Assembly (NCBI GenBank): GCA_002796835.1
Contig: LUGL01000048.1
Coordinates: 12,118 to 51,911, forward strand
Origin: Elainella saxicola E1
GTDB lineage: Bacteria; Cyanobacteriota; Cyanobacteriia; Elainellales; Elainellaceae
DNA: 39,794 bases
Direction of reading: 5' to 3'
The stretch's first letter is position 1, and each line of letters begins with the position of its first letter. The notes beneath the pieces are model-generated. The model had not been told where the DNA came from, did no database searches, and was given only the letters and a program-made list of their open reading frames with translations. Both the position numbers and the translations under genes were made by a program. Below, piece by piece: positions 17,890 to 31,655 of this stretch.

Positions 17890-19059
17890 ATGTATCTTAA
17901 GTCTCTTCACCTGAAGCAATTCCGCAACTATGCCAATCAACAGGTGGAGTTCTCAGCCCCTAAAACCATTCTGGTGGGGGATAATGCTCAGGGCAAATCC
18001 AATCTGCTAGAAGCCGTTGAATTGCTGGCAACTTTGCGATCGCACCGGGCTTTGCGCGATCGAGAGCTGGTGTTAGAAGGTGAGCCAATTGGCCAAATTA
18101 GCGCTGTGCTGGAACGTAATAGTTCACCCGTGGATTTGAATCTGCTTTTGCGCAGCAATGGCCGTCGCACCGTCAGTTTGAATGGGGAAACCTTACGGCG
18201 ACAGCTCGATTTTCTGGGCGTAATGAATGCGGTACAGTTCTCCAGCCTCGATCTAGAACTGGTGCGGGGTAGTCCGGGAGAGCGGCGCGATTGGCTGGAT
18301 ACCTTGCTGACTCAACTCGAACCTGTCTATGCCTACATTTTGCAGCAGTACAATACAGTGCTGCGACAACGCAATGCCCTACTGAAACAGCAATTGAAAC
18401 GGCAGGAAGAGGTGCCCTTGAACTTGTTTCCTAGCTCGTCTCCTGACTCTCCCCAAGCATTGCCTGCCGATCAAACCCAGCTAGCCCTTTGGGATGCCCA
18501 ACTGGCCGCGATCGGATCGCGCGTGATTCGACGACGGGCTAGGGTGATCGAGCGGTTGGCTCCTTTGGCCCAGTCCTGGCATCAGTCGATCAGCAACAGT
18601 ACGGAGATTCTGGAAGTGCGCTATGCCCCAAATGTGACGATCGAGTCGGATGATCCGAATGCCATTCAGGCCGCCTTTCTGGAAAAATTACAGCGCCGAG
18701 CCGTCGCAGAACAGCACCAGGGAACCACGCTGGTCGGACCACACCGCGATGAAGTGGAATTTGTGATTAACCAAACAGCAGCGCGGCAATATGGCTCTCA
18801 GGGACAGCAGCGCACTTTAGTATTAGCCCTCAAGCTGGCAGAATTAAAGTTGATTGAAACGGTGATTGGCGAACCGCCTTTGCTGCTTTTAGACGATGTC
18901 TTAGCAGAACTCGATCTGAATCGGCAAAATAAGTTGCTAGAAACGATCCAAGATCATTTTCAAACGCTGATTACCACCACTCATTTGGGATCCTTTGATG
19001 CTCAGTGGCTGAAATCCTCCCAAATTCTCACCGTCAAAGCCGGACGCATTCAGAATTAA
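17890..19059 (+). CDS. recF: DNA replication and repair protein RecF
   Basis: RecF is an SMC-like ATPase that recognises single-strand gaps and helps load RecA with RecO and RecR. The Walker A motif GDNAQGKSN (residues 30-38, K36) follows the family opening LKQFRNY. The signature motif is SQGQQRTLVLALKLAE and the Walker B is PLLLLDDVLAELD. The protein has 389 residues, close to the usual 360-400. The ATG at 17890 has AAGG about five bases upstream. It is not beside dnaA-dnaN-gyrB, its classic position in many bacteria. Here it lies 11 bases behind a cation ATPase gene and 17 bases ahead of exbD, so the three may share a transcript. Confidence 0.96.
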   Translation: MYLKSLHLKQFRNYANQQVEFSAPKTILVGDNAQGKSNLLEAVELLATLRSHRALRDRELVLEGEPIGQISAVLERNSSPVDLNLLLRSNGRRTVSLNGETLRRQLDFLGVMNAVQFSSLDLELVRGSPGERRDWLDTLLTQLEPVYAYILQQYNTVLRQRNALLKQQLKRQEEVPLNLFPSSSPDSPQALPADQTQLALWDAQLAAIGSRVIRRRARVIERLAPLAQSWHQSISNSTEILEVRYAPNVTIESDDPNAIQAAFLEKLQRRAVAEQHQGTTLVGPHRDEVEFVINQTAARQYGSQGQQRTLVLALKLAELKLIETVIGEPPLLLLDDVLAELDLNRQNKLLETIQDHFQTLITTTHLGSFDAQWLKSSQILTVKAGRIQN

Positions 19060-25499: not shown

Positions 25500-28400
25500 A
25501 TGAAGCGATTTCCCTGGCTGCCCTGGCTACTGGTTTTCCCTAAAAAATTACCGCTCCGCTTCGTGCTGGTTGCTCCCTTCATCCTACAAACGATCGGCAC
25601 TGTCATTTTGGTAGCCTATATTTCTCACCGAAGTGGACAAAAAGCCTTAGAAGAGATGGTGCATCATTTGATGGGAGAATTGAGCACTTCCATTGAACAG
25701 AGTTTGCACCATTACCTGCACTATCCTGCTGAAATTAACACAATTAACGCGGCAGCAATTCAGAATGGAACGCTGAACTGGCAGGATTTTCCTGATTTAG
25801 AAAAACACTTTGTTCAGCAGATTCGCATTTTCCCAGAAATTGGCAGTATTGCGATCGCAACTCAATCACAGCAGTTTTTGTCGGTTGGACGATCGAACAA
25901 GACCCAGCAGCTTTTGATCCATCTGCAGGATGCATCCACGCAGGGACAGCTTCAACATTACCAGCTCGATCTCAACAGCCAGCGAACCCAGCGACTGAAA
26001 AGCAAAACAGGGGTGATGTTGCCTCAAGATCTGGTTCAACAATCCCAACAGTTGACTCAGGAACAATCTAAAACACAATCGCACCAGCCTCATTGGCAGT
26101 TAGGGGTTGCTCCAACTTCAGCCCAAGCTCCGCCTCAACTGATGGTGACTCACTGGATGCCGTTCTATAACGCTGCCGATCGCTTCCAGGGCATGGTCAG
26201 CACAAGCCAATTTATCACCTCAATCGGGCAATTGCTGCAAGATTTCCGCTTTAGCAAAACCGGGCAGGCGTTTATTCTGGATCGGGAGGGGCGATTAATC
26301 GCAACCTCAACCGGAGAAGTCCCGTTTCAGTCATCAGCTCCTTCGACCTCTCACCCAATTGATGCCGCGCAATTGCAACTCAAGGCGATCGACAGCACCC
26401 ATCCGTTGACGCGAGCCGTTGCCCAGTTTCTAGATAGGCCGAAACTATCCACTACATCACACCTCCAGGGCATTTTGGTCTGGAAGCAGGCACGATATTT
26501 TGTTCAGGCTTTGCCATTGTCAAATCCTGCGGAATTAGACTGGCGCATTGTGATCGTGTTGCCCGAATCTGATTTCACGCTGGAGCTACAGCGCAGTAAA
26601 GCCATCACGATCTTGCTCTCTGGTCTGACGCTGTTATTGTCGATCGTTCTGGGCATCTTCATGGCTCGTTGGGTAACCCGACCTTTAAGAGAATTGCAGG
26701 CTGTGACAAAACAGGTTGCCGCTGGAGATTTAACTACGGTTGGGTTAAAGGCATGGATCGATCGCCATCGCCAGGATGAATTGGGGGAATTTGCCCAATC
26801 GTTTGAGCAAATGGTTTTGAAGTTGCAGAACACTTTTAGCGGCATGCGATCGCTGAATCAATCTTTGGCAGCGAGCGGTAGCCAGATGAAGCAAATTCTA
26901 GAAACCATGCCAATTGGTGTTTCCGTACATTATCCCGATGGTTCACTGGCTTATATCAACCGGACTGGCAAGCAGCTTTTACAGCGGGATTTACCTGTAG
27001 GCAGTGACGTTGAAACCTGGCTCAATGCTTGTCAGTTCTATCGCAACGGGACAAACGAACGCTATCCATTAGAAGAACTGCCGGTGATGCGGGCTTTAAG
27101 AGGGGAGATGACCAGGGTAGATGACCTGGAGATCCAGCAGGACCAAACGACAATAATCCTGGAAGTGTATGCCACACCGTTGTTGGATCAGCGAGGCCAT
27201 GTAATTGCGTCTATCAATGCTTTTTGCGATATTACGCAACGTCGCACCACTGAACAGATTTTGTTGGATTATCACCGCAGGTTAGAAGCAGAGGTCATAG
27301 AACGTACAAAAGCTTTGCAGCACAGCGAGGAACAATTTCGCCGATCGTTCAATGATGCAGGCATTGGCATGGCCATTCTGACAATGGACGGTTATTTTTT
27401 GCAGGTGAATCGCGCCCTTTGTGAAATCTTGGGGTACACCGAATCGGAACTGCTCGCTTGCTCATTCGAGATGCTGATCCATCCTGTCGATCGCGTTGCC
27501 ACAGCCAATGTCAATTTTTTCAGCAACTTGGCGGCGGGCCATCAAACTTTTTCCACCGAAAAGCGCTTCTTGCATCGCCAAGGACAGACTGTTTGGGGGC
27601 TGATCAATATCTCGTTGTTGTCGGATGCTGAGGGTCAGCCACTTTATTACATTTCTCAAATTCAAGACATTAGCGCCCGTAAGCAAACAGAGGCTGCATT
27701 GAAACAAAGTGAGGAACGTAATCGAGCAATTCTCTCTACTATTCCCGATTTAATTGCGCTCGTCAGTATCAATGGCGTCTATTTAGATGTCATCAAACAA
27801 AACATGTTTCCGGAATCCTTACGCAACGCAAACACCTTAGCGGGTAAGTCCATTGCAGAAAATCTTCCTCCTGAGGTAGCCAGCAAAAAGCTACAAATGA
27901 TTCGTCAAGCTGTGGCAACAGGTGAAGTGCAAACCTATGAACAGCAAATTCAAATGGCTGATCATATTCAATATGAAGAAATTCGGATTTTGCCCTATGG
28001 AGAGGCGATCGCGCTGGTGATGATTCGGGATATTACCGATCGCAAACAGGCCGAGTTGGAATTACAGCAGGCAAAAGACGCCGCTGAGGCCGCAAACCGG
28101 GCCAAAAGCACATTCTTAGCCAATATGAGCCATGAGTTAAGAACGCCACTCAGCGCAATCCTAGGCTATACTCAGCTGCTCATCGATGATTCCAACCTAA
28201 CAGCATCGCAGCAGGCCCAGCTCGATATCGTCAATCGGAATGGAGAATACTTACTTCAGTTAATTAATGATGTTTTGTCTATTTCCAAGATTGAAGCAGG
28301 TTGTGTCACCTTAGAAGAGCAAGATTTTGATCTTTATGCACTTCTCGATGCGCTGAGAGAAACCTTCCAATTGCGCTCTGAATCGAAAGGTTTAAAGTTC

Positions 28401-29615
28401 ATCTGTGGCTACTCTGAAGATGTGCCCAAATATATTCGAGGCGATCAGCAAAAATTGCGGCAGATTATTATCAATCTCCTGGACAACGCGATCAAGTTTA
28501 CCGCTCAAGGCACGGTATCTCTTACGGCTAATACCATCCCATGGCAGTCTAAGACGAGCAATTCTGATGGCAAAACGAAGACTAGCTTGCACACTGGCTT
28601 GCAAATCTGGGTGCGTGATACAGGAGTGGGAATTGCGGCTGAAGATTTGGAGAGCATTTTTGATGTTTTTGTCCAGTCTAGTGCAGGACGACAATCGCAA
28701 CAGGGTACTGGATTGGGATTACCGATCAGCCGCCGATTCGCCCATCTCATGGGAGGTGACCTATCGGTGCAGAGCCACTTGGGACAAGGCACCCAATTTT
28801 GTCTCGATTTGCCGCTTCATCCAGGAATCAGTCATGTAGCCATTCATCAGAGGAAAGAGCAAATGACCTATCGAGTGGTTGGGTTAGCCCCAGGTCAGCC
28901 GACTTATCGCATCTTAGTTGTGGATGACACCGAGACCAATCGTCGATTGATGCTGCGATGGCTGCAAATCGCTGGCTTCGAAGTTCGGGAGGCACACAAT
29001 GGCCAGGAAGCGATCGAACAATGGCTCAAGTTTCAGCCTCATTTAATTTGGATGGATATGCGAATGCCGGTGATGGATGGATTTGAAGCAGTGCAACAAA
29101 TTCGTCAGCAGGCTGCCACTCAAGCAGCTCAGTCGCTTGGAGAGGGAGAGGGAGGCCAATCTGGTCCAGCCTTGCCAAAAATTATCGCTTTAACGGCAGC
29201 CACCTTTGAAGAAGATCAGCAGCGAGTGGTGGAAATAGGTTGCGATGACTTTGTGGCAAAACCCTGCCTGGAAGCAACCATCTTGGAGAAAATTACGCAG
29301 CATTTAGGCGTGAAATATCTTTATGCTGAAAAAGAAGCTCAATTACAGCAGCCCCCAAAAACAACCGTAGTCCGATCGACAGGCCTGTCCCAACGCTCGT
29401 TAACCGAGGCGCTCCATCGGATGCCATCTGAGTGGATTGCTCGTCTTAATCATGCTGCTCGCAGTGCAAATGAACGCCTGATGTTGGAGCTGCTAGAAGC
29501 ACTGCCCCCCTCGGAAGCACCTCTCAAAACGGCGATCGTTCAACTGATTGAGAACTTCCAACTCGACCAGCTCATCCAATTCACGCAAAAACGTGAGGAT
29601 ATGCCTTCTCCATAA
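25500..29615 (+). CDS. Hybrid sensor histidine kinase (periplasmic sensor, HAMP, three PAS, HisKA, HATPase, receiver)
   Basis: A large 1371-residue membrane sensor. TM1 is about 20-42. A periplasmic region of about 320 residues follows that looks like a Cache domain (KTGQAFILDREGRLIAT). TM2 is about 368-388, then HAMP (WVTRPLRELQAVTKQVAAGDL). PAS-like blocks start near 462, 609 and 737. The kinase core has H878 in ANMSHELRTPL, the N box LLDNAIKFTAQG, the G1 box DTGVGI and the G2 box GTGLGLPIS. A receiver (about 1136-1265) has D1186 in IWMDMRMPVMDG. A helical tail of about 100 residues ends it, as in many cyanobacterial hybrids. The ligand is not predictable. The next gene, 29 bases on, is a receiver-ATPase protein, so they likely form one pathway. 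The divergent prmC lies 65 bases away. Confidence 0.93.
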   Translation: MKRFPWLPWLLVFPKKLPLRFVLVAPFILQTIGTVILVAYISHRSGQKALEEMVHHLMGELSTSIEQSLHHYLHYPAEINTINAAAIQNGTLNWQDFPDLEKHFVQQIRIFPEIGSIAIATQSQQFLSVGRSNKTQQLLIHLQDASTQGQLQHYQLDLNSQRTQRLKSKTGVMLPQDLVQQSQQLTQEQSKTQSHQPHWQLGVAPTSAQAPPQLMVTHWMPFYNAADRFQGMVSTSQFITSIGQLLQDFRFSKTGQAFILDREGRLIATSTGEVPFQSSAPSTSHPIDAAQLQLKAIDSTHPLTRAVAQFLDRPKLSTTSHLQGILVWKQARYFVQALPLSNPAELDWRIVIVLPESDFTLELQRSKAITILLSGLTLLLSIVLGIFMARWVTRPLRELQAVTKQVAAGDLTTVGLKAWIDRHRQDELGEFAQSFEQMVLKLQNTFSGMRSLNQSLAASGSQMKQILETMPIGVSVHYPDGSLAYINRTGKQLLQRDLPVGSDVETWLNACQFYRNGTNERYPLEELPVMRALRGEMTRVDDLEIQQDQTTIILEVYATPLLDQRGHVIASINAFCDITQRRTTEQILLDYHRRLEAEVIERTKALQHSEEQFRRSFNDAGIGMAILTMDGYFLQVNRALCEILGYTESELLACSFEMLIHPVDRVATANVNFFSNLAAGHQTFSTEKRFLHRQGQTVWGLINISLLSDAEGQPLYYISQIQDISARKQTEAALKQSEERNRAILSTIPDLIALVSINGVYLDVIKQNMFPESLRNANTLAGKSIAENLPPEVASKKLQMIRQAVATGEVQTYEQQIQMADHIQYEEIRILPYGEAIALVMIRDITDRKQAELELQQAKDAAEAANRAKSTFLANMSHELRTPLSAILGYTQLLIDDSNLTASQQAQLDIVNRNGEYLLQLINDVLSISKIEAGCVTLEEQDFDLYALLDALRETFQLRSESKGLKFICGYSEDVPKYIRGDQQKLRQIIINLLDNAIKFTAQGTVSLTANTIPWQSKTSNSDGKTKTSLHTGLQIWVRDTGVGIAAEDLESIFDVFVQSSAGRQSQQGTGLGLPISRRFAHLMGGDLSVQSHLGQGTQFCLDLPLHPGISHVAIHQRKEQMTYRVVGLAPGQPTYRILVVDDTETNRRLMLRWLQIAGFEVREAHNGQEAIEQWLKFQPHLIWMDMRMPVMDGFEAVQQIRQQAATQAAQSLGEGEGGQSGPALPKIIALTAATFEEDQQRVVEIGCDDFVAKPCLEATILEKITQHLGVKYLYAEKEAQLQQPPKTTVVRSTGLSQRSLTEALHRMPSEWIARLNHAARSANERLMLELLEALPPSEAPLKTAIVQLIENFQLDQLIQFTQKREDMPSP

Positions 29616-29644: not shown

Positions 29645-30913
29645 ATGAAGGTCAACAAACTGCAAAGAACCACTGGCGATATTTTAATTGTTGACGACAC
29701 TCCCGATAATTTGCGGCTGTTGTCAGACTTGCTGACCAAAGCAGGATATACCGTTCGGCGGGTGATTAACGGAGAACTGGGGTTAGAAGCAGCCCAGCTC
29801 GATCCCCCTGATCTCATTCTGTTAGATATTCGCATGCCGGGATTGAATGGCTATAAAGTTTGCGATCAGCTGAAATCGAGCGATCGGACGGCCCAGATTC
29901 CGGTCATTTTCCTCAGCGCAATGGACGAAGAGCTAGATAAAGTCATGGCATTTGAAGCAGGTGGTGTGGATTACATCACGAAACCGTTTCAGGTCGTCGA
30001 GGTGCTGGCTCGAATTGAAACCCATTTGCAGGTCAGTCGATTGCGGCAAATGCTCCAGCAGCAAAATGTCCAACTTCAGCAAGAGATTACTCAGCGAACC
30101 TCGGCTGAAATAGCATTTGAAACGCTGAATCAGGGTTTGGAGTCCCAAGTTCAGGAACGCACGATCGACCTTCAGGCCCAGAATCAGCAGTTACTCCAAC
30201 AAAAAACGGAATTACAGCAACAACTCGACCGATCACAGCACCTCAATGCTTCGCAGTTTGATTTGATCAAAACCATGGTGCAAAAATTGGAGATTGCCCT
30301 GACTGATATTTCAATGGCGCTATCGGTGCTCACACCCAATTTGCCACCAACTAAAAAATCCGCTTTAGAAAAAATCGTTAGTGCGACAGCTTTGGTGGAA
30401 GGACTGATGCAGCAAGGCTCTACCCTGATCGAAACCCAGGTTCAGCCAGCTTCAGCGACTCGAACCATCAATCTCACCGAATTTTGCCAAAATTTTGTGG
30501 CGCAATGGCAGTTACCGCAAACCCCGCGCTATCAACTGTCCTTTATTAAATGGGGGTCATATCCAAGCGAAATTGCCTTAAGTGAATCTCTGCTGCGGCA
30601 AACCTTAACCCATTTGCTTGACAATGCAGTGCGCTATTCGCCTCAAGGTGGCACAATCCTATTTCAATTGATCTACGAACCCACACAAATCTTGATCCAA
30701 ATTCGGGATGAGGGAATTGGGATTCCCAGCGTTGACCTCAACCGCGTGTTCGATCGCTTTTATCGGGCGAGTAATGTCAGTAATTCTGGCTCAGGGGTAG
30801 GACTCACCTTGGTAAAACAGGCGATCGAACTTCAGGGCGGCAGGGTTGAAATCAGTAGCGAAGTGGGCCGAGGCACAACCGTCACCCTCGCTCTGCCCTA
30901 TACTAGCTGCTAA
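29645..30913 (+). CDS. Receiver-coiled-coil-HATPase protein lacking the phospho-acceptor histidine
   Basis: The 422-residue soluble protein has an N-terminal receiver domain with D17/D18 (VDD), D61 in LLDIRMP and K113 in ITKPF. A glutamine-rich coiled coil (about 130-200) leads to a dimerisation-like helix. Aligned with ordinary histidine kinases, the H-box position reads MVQKLEIALTDI, so Q213 stands where His is expected. The ATPase domain is intact: N box LLDNAVRYSP (N327), G1 DEGIGIP (355-361), F box RVFDRFYR and G2 GSGVGL. It could be an ATP-binding scaffold, a phosphatase or a receiver-gated regulator of another kinase. Other members of this class keep the His. It directly follows the hybrid kinase gene, its probable partner. 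Confidence 0.85.
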   Translation: MKVNKLQRTTGDILIVDDTPDNLRLLSDLLTKAGYTVRRVINGELGLEAAQLDPPDLILLDIRMPGLNGYKVCDQLKSSDRTAQIPVIFLSAMDEELDKVMAFEAGGVDYITKPFQVVEVLARIETHLQVSRLRQMLQQQNVQLQQEITQRTSAEIAFETLNQGLESQVQERTIDLQAQNQQLLQQKTELQQQLDRSQHLNASQFDLIKTMVQKLEIALTDISMALSVLTPNLPPTKKSALEKIVSATALVEGLMQQGSTLIETQVQPASATRTINLTEFCQNFVAQWQLPQTPRYQLSFIKWGSYPSEIALSESLLRQTLTHLLDNAVRYSPQGGTILFQLIYEPTQILIQIRDEGIGIPSVDLNRVFDRFYRASNVSNSGSGVGLTLVKQAIELQGGRVEISSEVGRGTTVTLALPYTSC

Positions 30914-31442: not shown

Positions 31443-31655
31443 TTATTGCAGTTGCGAGAGTAGTCCAATTAAGCCATGTCCTGTCAAAGCTTCCAGGATG
31501 AGCATCGAAACAAAACCCAACATTGCTAGACGGCCATTCACTTTCTCTGCGTAGGACGTAAACCCAGTTTGCTGAGCTTCCATGACGTAGACTCTGGGTT
31601 CAATCGCATAGTTGTTAAGCCGACCTTGCTCTTCTGTTACTAAACCGCTTCTCAT
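31443..31655 (-). CDS. High-light-inducible chlorophyll-binding protein (HLIP/SCP)
   Basis: This 70-residue member of the light-harvesting-like family carries one thylakoid membrane helix (about 42-60) with the Chl-binding motif AEKVNGRLAMLGF. The E and R form the interhelix ion pair, and N ligates chlorophyll. HLIPs dimerise, bind chlorophyll and beta-carotene, and quench excitation. They protect photosystem II assembly and chlorophyll synthesis enzymes under high light. The N-terminal 30 residues (MRSGLVTEEQGRLNNYAIEP) resemble the extension of HliC/HliD-type proteins. The ATG at 31655 has AAGGTGGG seven bases upstream. It stands alone and ends at the shared terminator. Confidence 0.94.
   Translation of the reverse strand: MRSGLVTEEQGRLNNYAIEPRVYVMEAQQTGFTSYAEKVNGRLAMLGFVSMLILEALTGHGLIGLLSQLQ

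Follow-up and report, generated by a model that had tools for sequence, protein, structure and literature searches.

The window analysed here, a stretch of 39,794 nucleotides from the cyanobacterium Elainella saxicola E1, contains a gene for a hybrid sensor histidine kinase followed, after a gap of 29 nt, by an uninterrupted open reading frame whose 422-aa product has the order REC, long helix, DHp, CA. The features of the two genes are the following.

25500–29615, + strand: partner hybrid sensor histidine kinase, 1371 aa (Pfam and motifs)
29645–30913, + strand: putative pseudo-histidine kinase gene, REC-coil-DHp-CA, 422 aa (ORF, Pfam, His-less clade of ten)
29681–30016, + strand: receiver domain, aa 13–124 (Pfam PF00072, E = 2.5e-27, and conserved residues)
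29825–29827, + strand: codon of receiver D61 (alignment; K113 and S91 are also kept)
29993–30238, + strand: putative long signalling helix, running from the final helix of the receiver up to the DHp, aa 117–198 (AlphaFold2 helix 117–232 and spacing)
30239–30448, + strand: degenerate DHp hairpin, aa 199–268, with limits of our choice (no HisKA match; alignments; helices 117–232 and 235–264)
30281–30283, + strand: codon of Q213, at the place of the phospho-acceptor His (alignments)
30584–30904, + strand: ATP-binding (CA) domain, aa 314–420 (Pfam PF02518, HATPase_c, E = 1.9e-26)
30623–30625, 30707–30727 and 30788–30805, + strand: CA motifs N327, DEGIGIP and GSGVGL (N327 and D355/G357–P361 invariant in the eight CA-bearing clade members)

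In Pfam, the partner kinase has a HAMP domain, PAS domains, a HisKA domain with its His, HATPase_c, and a C-terminal Response_reg domain, plus a weak Cache match below the cut-off. Its motifs SHELRTPL and INLLDNAIKF and its receiver Asp are intact. Past the receiver, its last ~60 aa look helical (MPSEWIARLNHAARSANE...LIENFQLDQLIQFTQ); this segment is found again in the partners of other loci and has no Pfam match, and at a guess, it may be a degenerate HPt-like domain. No RNA element was found within the window at Rfam gathering thresholds. On the − strand at 31443–31655 there is a 70-aa ORF with a chlorophyll a/b-binding match above cut-off (PF00504, 26.3 bits, cut-off 22.3), presumably a high-light-inducible protein.

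A first-pass annotation of this DNA, made from the sequence alone, had placed a Gln at the phospho-acceptor position of the 422-aa protein, with the receiver Asp61 and all ATP-binding motifs intact, directly behind a hybrid sensor kinase gene. The 29-nt gap and the Pfam domains of the upstream gene agree with this, and so do most of the motifs identified by alignment (D61, S91, K113, Q213, N327, D355EGIGIP, and G382SGVGL). K113 and position 213 lie exactly 100 residues apart, a spacing shared by 9 of 29 His-bearing relatives (93 or 107 in 5 more), and this supports the placing of Q213 in the column of the phospho-His. The rest of the H box is eroded, with Lys214 at H+1, Ile217 at H+4, and Ala218 at H+5, where Pro is usual. 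A profile search, suggested along with the first annotation, gives no Pfam match to HisKA at E ≤ 1 in the 422-aa protein; among relatives scanned, L053 and L059 of the same clade (see following) have no match either, and L062, the sole His-bearing one scanned, matches at E = 7.4e-10. The description of the ATP-binding motifs needs one correction: N327, DEGIGIP, and GSGVGL are there, but His323 takes the place of the Asn that opens the N box (NLLxNA).

The domain order is that of the receiver-controlled histidine kinases (Rec-HK) of the LvrB type, with a receiver bearing the phospho-acceptor Asp, a CA domain with N, G1, and G2 boxes (the first N-box Asn excepted), and, as judged from the AlphaFold2 model and the 100-residue spacer, a long helix joining REC and DHp. 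What the protein lacks is a DHp with a phospho-acceptor His, having Q213 and no HisKA match instead. It does not belong to the DivL family proper, having a receiver in place of PAS and Gln in place of Tyr, and a named NCBIfam equivalog was rejected, because all 25 listed of the 156 models matching at E ≤ 0.01 fall far below their cut-offs. It conforms to the notion of a pseudo-histidine kinase, that is, a DHp-CA derived from histidine kinases and without phospho-acceptor His across orthologs: the His is absent in all ten members of the clade and the CA is kept in eight. From these residues, no autokinase activity is predicted for the 422-aa protein, and the sequence evidence agrees with the earlier view of a receiver-controlled ATP-binding protein that is incapable of the usual autophosphorylation.

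Relatives were collected in a class-wide search of 388 genomes taken from a larger group (E ≤ 1e-62, four candidates scored per genome), which gave 39 places in 35 genomes; the alignment set comprises all of these and L097, a REC-kinase of the window's own genome. Because of the four candidates per genome and the sampling of 388 genomes from a larger group, further REC-kinases and clade members may exist. One member, L106, was recovered by this search alone, as it falls below the cut-offs of the other genome searches. The ten clade members found all belong to one cyanobacterial family and occur in at least 10 of the 36 genomes sampled from the window's order. None has His at the phospho-site, which is Gln in the window protein, L054, L055, L056, L064, and L106, Ala in L053, Arg in L057 and L058, and Pro in L059 (helix lengths differ in L059, L064, and L106, and their alignment is insecure in detail). 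Among the 30 other REC-kinases of the alignment, 29 keep the His, and the exception is L070, a member of another family with Arg. It is the absence of His that is conserved in the clade and not the Gln. Nothing special attaches to Gln, and a conserved Gln with a role of its own is ruled out, because Ala, Arg, and Pro occur at the same site in orthologs. A strain-specific mutation, which would have left His in the orthologs, and a sequencing error are also ruled out, because the loss is clade-wide and the nine other members found are equally without His.

Other REC-kinases of the window's genome mostly retain the residue. With L097 included, His is found in seven of the eight paralogs examined; seven of these lie outside the alignment set and are not in the count of His-bearing relatives (six have His, one Arg). 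The Arg-bearing one (L098:3462–4874, − strand, contig C25 of G000) is a REC-kinase of 471 aa (receiver 6–124, HisKA, HATPase_c) with the motif SRELRAPI, where Arg stands for the phospho-His, and its gene adjoins that of a His-bearing REC-kinase.

The CA domain shows a mixed pattern of loss and conservation. None of the eight CA-bearing clade members retains the first N-box Asn, which 27 of the 29 His-bearing relatives keep (L060 and L112 lack it), and L053, L055, L056, L057, and L059 show erosion of the G2 or F box. Other positions, including N327, A328, S332, P333, G335, G336, D355, G357–P361, and G384, are invariant in the eight. The domain is absent from L064 (275 aa), a tree neighbor of the window protein, and from L106 (239 aa), which groups beside L058, so that by the tree the two CA losses are independent. 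When the window CA was compared by tblastn with the 18-kb stretch around L064, the partner kinase was the sole match; for L106 (15-kb stretch), a single match was significant, again in the partner, and the rest had E > 1. The ATP-binding part is thus dispensable at least in these two proteins. In L059 it is the DHp that is shortened. Outside the clade, the His-bearing REC-kinase at L115:5729–6790 has a frame that stops inside the CA (354 aa), possibly an early stage of a similar decay.

The phylogenetic tree on all columns, built before L106 was included, groups the nine His-less proteins in one clade (96/90), with the His-bearing L060 next (94/89). Without the DHp columns (REC and CA, L064 being dropped for lack of CA), eight stay together (95/90), and a tree of only REC and coil unites all ten (97/87), with L060 as their sister (97/92). 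The Arg-bearing L070 is apart from the clade in all three trees, which makes a second loss of His likely; counting L070, the residue has then likely been lost twice. A single origin including L070 is disfavored by the three trees, although one clade including it is not rejected by the AU test (p = 0.161). The sister L060 keeps the His but already has Gly at the first N-box Asn, so the loss of this Asn may have preceded that of the His. Taken as a whole, the clade presents a series of forms from an active Rec-HK sister to a receiver without kinase domain, which is useful for understanding the origin of new response regulators.

The domains of the clade evolve at very different rates. In the eight CA-bearing members, mean identity is 75% for REC, 51% for the coil, 21.5% for DHp, and 52% for the CA core, and the corresponding values in seven His-bearing sisters are 61, 55, 42, and 55%. 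In nine clade members, 57 of 117 positions are invariant in REC and only 1 of 70 in DHp. Relative to REC, the tree length is 2.5 for CA and 5.9 for DHp in the clade, versus 1.2 and 1.95 in the sisters. The CA/REC contrast (2.5 vs 1.2) could be read as strong relaxation of the CA, and this was dropped as the main reading once the partner kinase served as the clock: the contrast owes more to a slow receiver than to a fast CA. With seven His-less and four His-bearing operons of similar divergence in the core of the partner kinase (56 vs 55% identity), the identities are 75 vs 61% for REC, 21 vs 37% for DHp, and 53 vs 53% for CA. The intervals of these differences are +6 to +23 points for REC, −12 to +11 for the coil, −25 to −8 for DHp, and −8 to +9 for CA, in a bootstrap that resamples columns and not operons, the small number of the latter (7 vs 4) lying outside its intervals. 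Measured by tree length against the partner core, the CA is slightly faster in the clade (3.0/3.23) than in the matched operons (1.76/2.28), though the mean identities are equal. A wider set of nine His-bearing operons, mixing subfamilies at 50–62% partner identity, gives 74 vs 59 for REC, 22 vs 27 for DHp, and 52 vs 38 for CA; for DHp, only the matched set shows a clear contrast. Compared with active relatives, then, the CA appears at most slightly relaxed, the receiver more constrained, and the DHp less so.

The register of the long helix is one element that has been kept. In seven of the ten clade members, and also in L070, the phospho-position comes exactly 100 residues after K113; the exceptions in the clade are L059 (101, broken DHp) and the two proteins without CA, L064 (116) and L106 (69). 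The His-bearing relatives that differ from 100 have 93 (four), 107 (one), or other lengths ranging from 54 to 110 (15). Downstream, the lengths from position 213 to N327 vary within the clade (114, 122, 117, 117, 117, 116, 116, and 84), which indicates that indels are tolerated there. This association, seen in ten proteins, suggests that, where the CA is kept, selection still maintains a mechanical connection between receiver and DHp-CA.

An AlphaFold2 model from a 19-sequence alignment (mean pLDDT 86.4, pTM 0.47) retains the hairpin and the CA fold, with a helix at 117–232, a turn, a helix at 235–264, and then the CA. Block means of pLDDT are 68–80 in 201–260, 49 in 261–270, and 58 in the ATP-lid region (371–380). 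The best six Foldseek hits of the model are LvrB chains (8vc9, E = 3e-23 to 1.3e-21, 18–20% identity), and DivL (4q20) ranks 31. With TM scores of 0.32–0.38 and an rmsd of about 32, the domains match those of LvrB but their arrangement does not.

The first annotation had also linked the protein to the neighboring kinase, and this link proves to be strong. A hybrid kinase lies directly upstream in nine of the ten clade loci (the window, L075, L076, L077, L079, L080, L081, L082, and L106), where the second gene, taken from its first possible start codon, starts at −8 to +32 nt relative to where the last sense codon of the partner ends. All nine partner kinases keep the His in their H box. The exception is L056: in the surrounding 19-kb stretch (L078), neither a match to the partner nor, in a pattern search, a kinase H box was found in any ORF. 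The arrangement extends beyond the clade, as a hybrid kinase is also directly ahead of several His-bearing relatives (L083, L085, L087, L090, L091, L115, and L116).

A hybrid kinase and a REC-DHp-CA partner encoded in one operon are known from the LvrA/LvrB system of Leptospira (PMC5863495, PMC13269768). LvrA is reported to phosphorylate LvrB at the receiver Asp in vitro, and the autokinase activity of LvrB rises with LvrA in a D56-dependent manner (PMC5863495); receiver phosphorylation is described as bringing the helices into a coiled coil and freeing a CA domain (PMC13269768). The coupling of receiver to kinase core by a helix would be shared, judging here from sequence and model. The difference is that LvrB is an active kinase with a phospho-acceptor His161, whereas the window protein and its clade are without such a His. 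The soluble REC-kinase ExsG is also similar, in that receiver phosphorylation controls (in ExsG, inhibits) the kinase core, but it autophosphorylates on His and has an HWE-type core (PMC3899027). Closer at hand, the 29 His-bearing REC-kinases of cyanobacteria (L060–L063, L065–L069, L071–L074, L097, L107–L121) have the same domain order and, according to the genome searches (in which L097 was not rated), are 36–45% identical to the window protein; they differ by their His and, in 27 of them, by the first N-box Asn.

His-less HisKA domains are rare, with 722 counted among 76,471 (0.9%) in a recent survey (PMC12632262). The recurring example of a pseudo-histidine kinase in the literature found is DivL of Caulobacter, a His-less histidine kinase described as working by binding a response regulator, with a weak affinity for TNP-ATP (57 uM) and a dispensable CA (PMC4211667). 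As in the clade, the phospho-His of DivL is replaced across orthologs (by Tyr, and by Ala in one species) with the histidine kinase boxes otherwise kept, and DHp-CA is missing from some orthologs (PMC4211667). Unlike the window protein, DivL is described with N-terminal PAS domains and no receiver, and with conservation persisting in a patch close to its Tyr (PMC4211667); in the present clade, no part is less conserved than the DHp. By analogy, the 422-aa protein may play its two-component role by binding, in the manner of DivL. No paper on a His-less Rec-HK clade is among the matches listed from the open-licence literature (titles and abstract openings). His-less HisKA domains being known, what would be new here is a pseudo-histidine kinase derived from the Rec-HK of an LvrA/LvrB-like dyad.

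The reading that we favor, with some reserve, is that the second member of such a dyad has turned into a pseudo-histidine kinase that would be phosphorylated by its partner and act by conformation or binding. It draws on the His-less clade, the eroded H box and first N-box Asn, the tight receiver, the retained CA residues, the helix length preserved in seven of ten members, and the partner linkage, and it makes the 422-aa protein probably a regulator now rather than a kinase. The His would have been lost once, in the ancestor of the clade. As in LvrA/LvrB, the partner hybrid kinase would phosphorylate D61, the receivers would re-pair, and the long helices would zip into a coiled coil similar to that described for LvrB, moving the DHp and CA domains. 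Because there is no His, this movement cannot end in autophosphorylation, and the output is most likely binding: a changed dimer shape, perhaps with a changed nucleotide state, would be recognized by a protein that binds it, for example the hybrid kinase itself or some other regulator. A more specific version, put forward tentatively, is a receiver-gated pseudokinase of Rec-HK descent in which D61 phosphorylation acts through the fixed-register helix on an ATP-dependent conformational output of the CA, read by binding and not by phosphotransfer, and of which the cyanobacteria would show successive steps of dismantling (loss of the first N-box Asn, followed by the His, the H box, and finally the CA). 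Several observations run against the favored reading: L056 has no adjoining partner, the CA is lost in two members and the first N-box Asn in all eight that have a CA, the G2 or F boxes are eroded in some, and the CA evolves about twice as fast relative to REC as in His-bearing sisters (2.5 vs 1.2), the matched comparison being one of 7 vs 4 operons. A pseudokinase that carries a receiver and is encoded next to its likely activating kinase is a favorable case, because input and partner are both known candidates and the function is directly testable.

The leading alternative is that the kinase module is simply in decay and that the receiver is the working part, as a phosphate acceptor or a single-domain-like response regulator of the hybrid kinase, with DHp-CA as baggage. 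The two independent losses of CA, a DHp saturated with change, the missing first N-box Asn, the many invariant receiver positions, and the CA/REC ratio all point in this direction. Yet the CA remains in open frame in eight of ten members with invariant N and G1 residues, it is as conserved as in active relatives at matched partner divergence, and the helix length is exact in the seven members with full DHp and CA, so that decay is a serious but less probable account. The same unrelaxed CA, together with the pairing in an operon, could indicate that it still uses ATP, but in trans, so as to phosphorylate the His of a heterodimer mate (the partner or another kinase), as pseudokinase/active kinase heterodimers have been reported for ChrS/HrrS (PMC9491836). 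This is improbable given the loss of the first N-box Asn in eight of eight members and the extent of DHp divergence, which would make it doubtful that the protein can pack against the partner in a heterodimer.

Two further readings concern the DHp itself and are more remote. The phosphatase motif of HisKA proteins has E/D at H+1 and T/N at H+4, and the Lys214 and Ile217 found at these places in the window protein make a phosphatase role unlikely; of the roles first suggested for the protein toward the neighboring kinase, those of regulator or scaffold stand. The idea of a dedicated phosphatase, acting on the receiver of the partner or on another regulator, is not without arguments: the His is reported to contribute to HisKA phosphatase activity without being essential (PMC12632262), and Thr or Asn is found at H+4 in L054, L055, L056, L057, and L058, and in the insecurely aligned L059. 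However, H+4 is Glu in L053 and L064, whereas a phosphatase function common to the clade should have preserved this position, and such a function is very improbable. Even less is to be expected from another helix residue having taken over as phospho-acceptor. L053 does have a His three residues past the canonical place, but it is unshared, and in neither the DHp nor the preceding coil do the ten have a His column in common; H127, present in nine of them, sits at the receiver end and is also found in many His-bearing relatives.

The neighborhood of the dyad includes one more recurring gene. The window ORF at 17890–19056 has relatives at L080:7050–8180 (79% identical), L106:5492–6622 (78%), and L087:2871–4025 (65%). 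In L080 and L106 the relative immediately follows the dyad, and in L087 it immediately precedes the kinase, whereas in the window the ORF is ~6 kb off.
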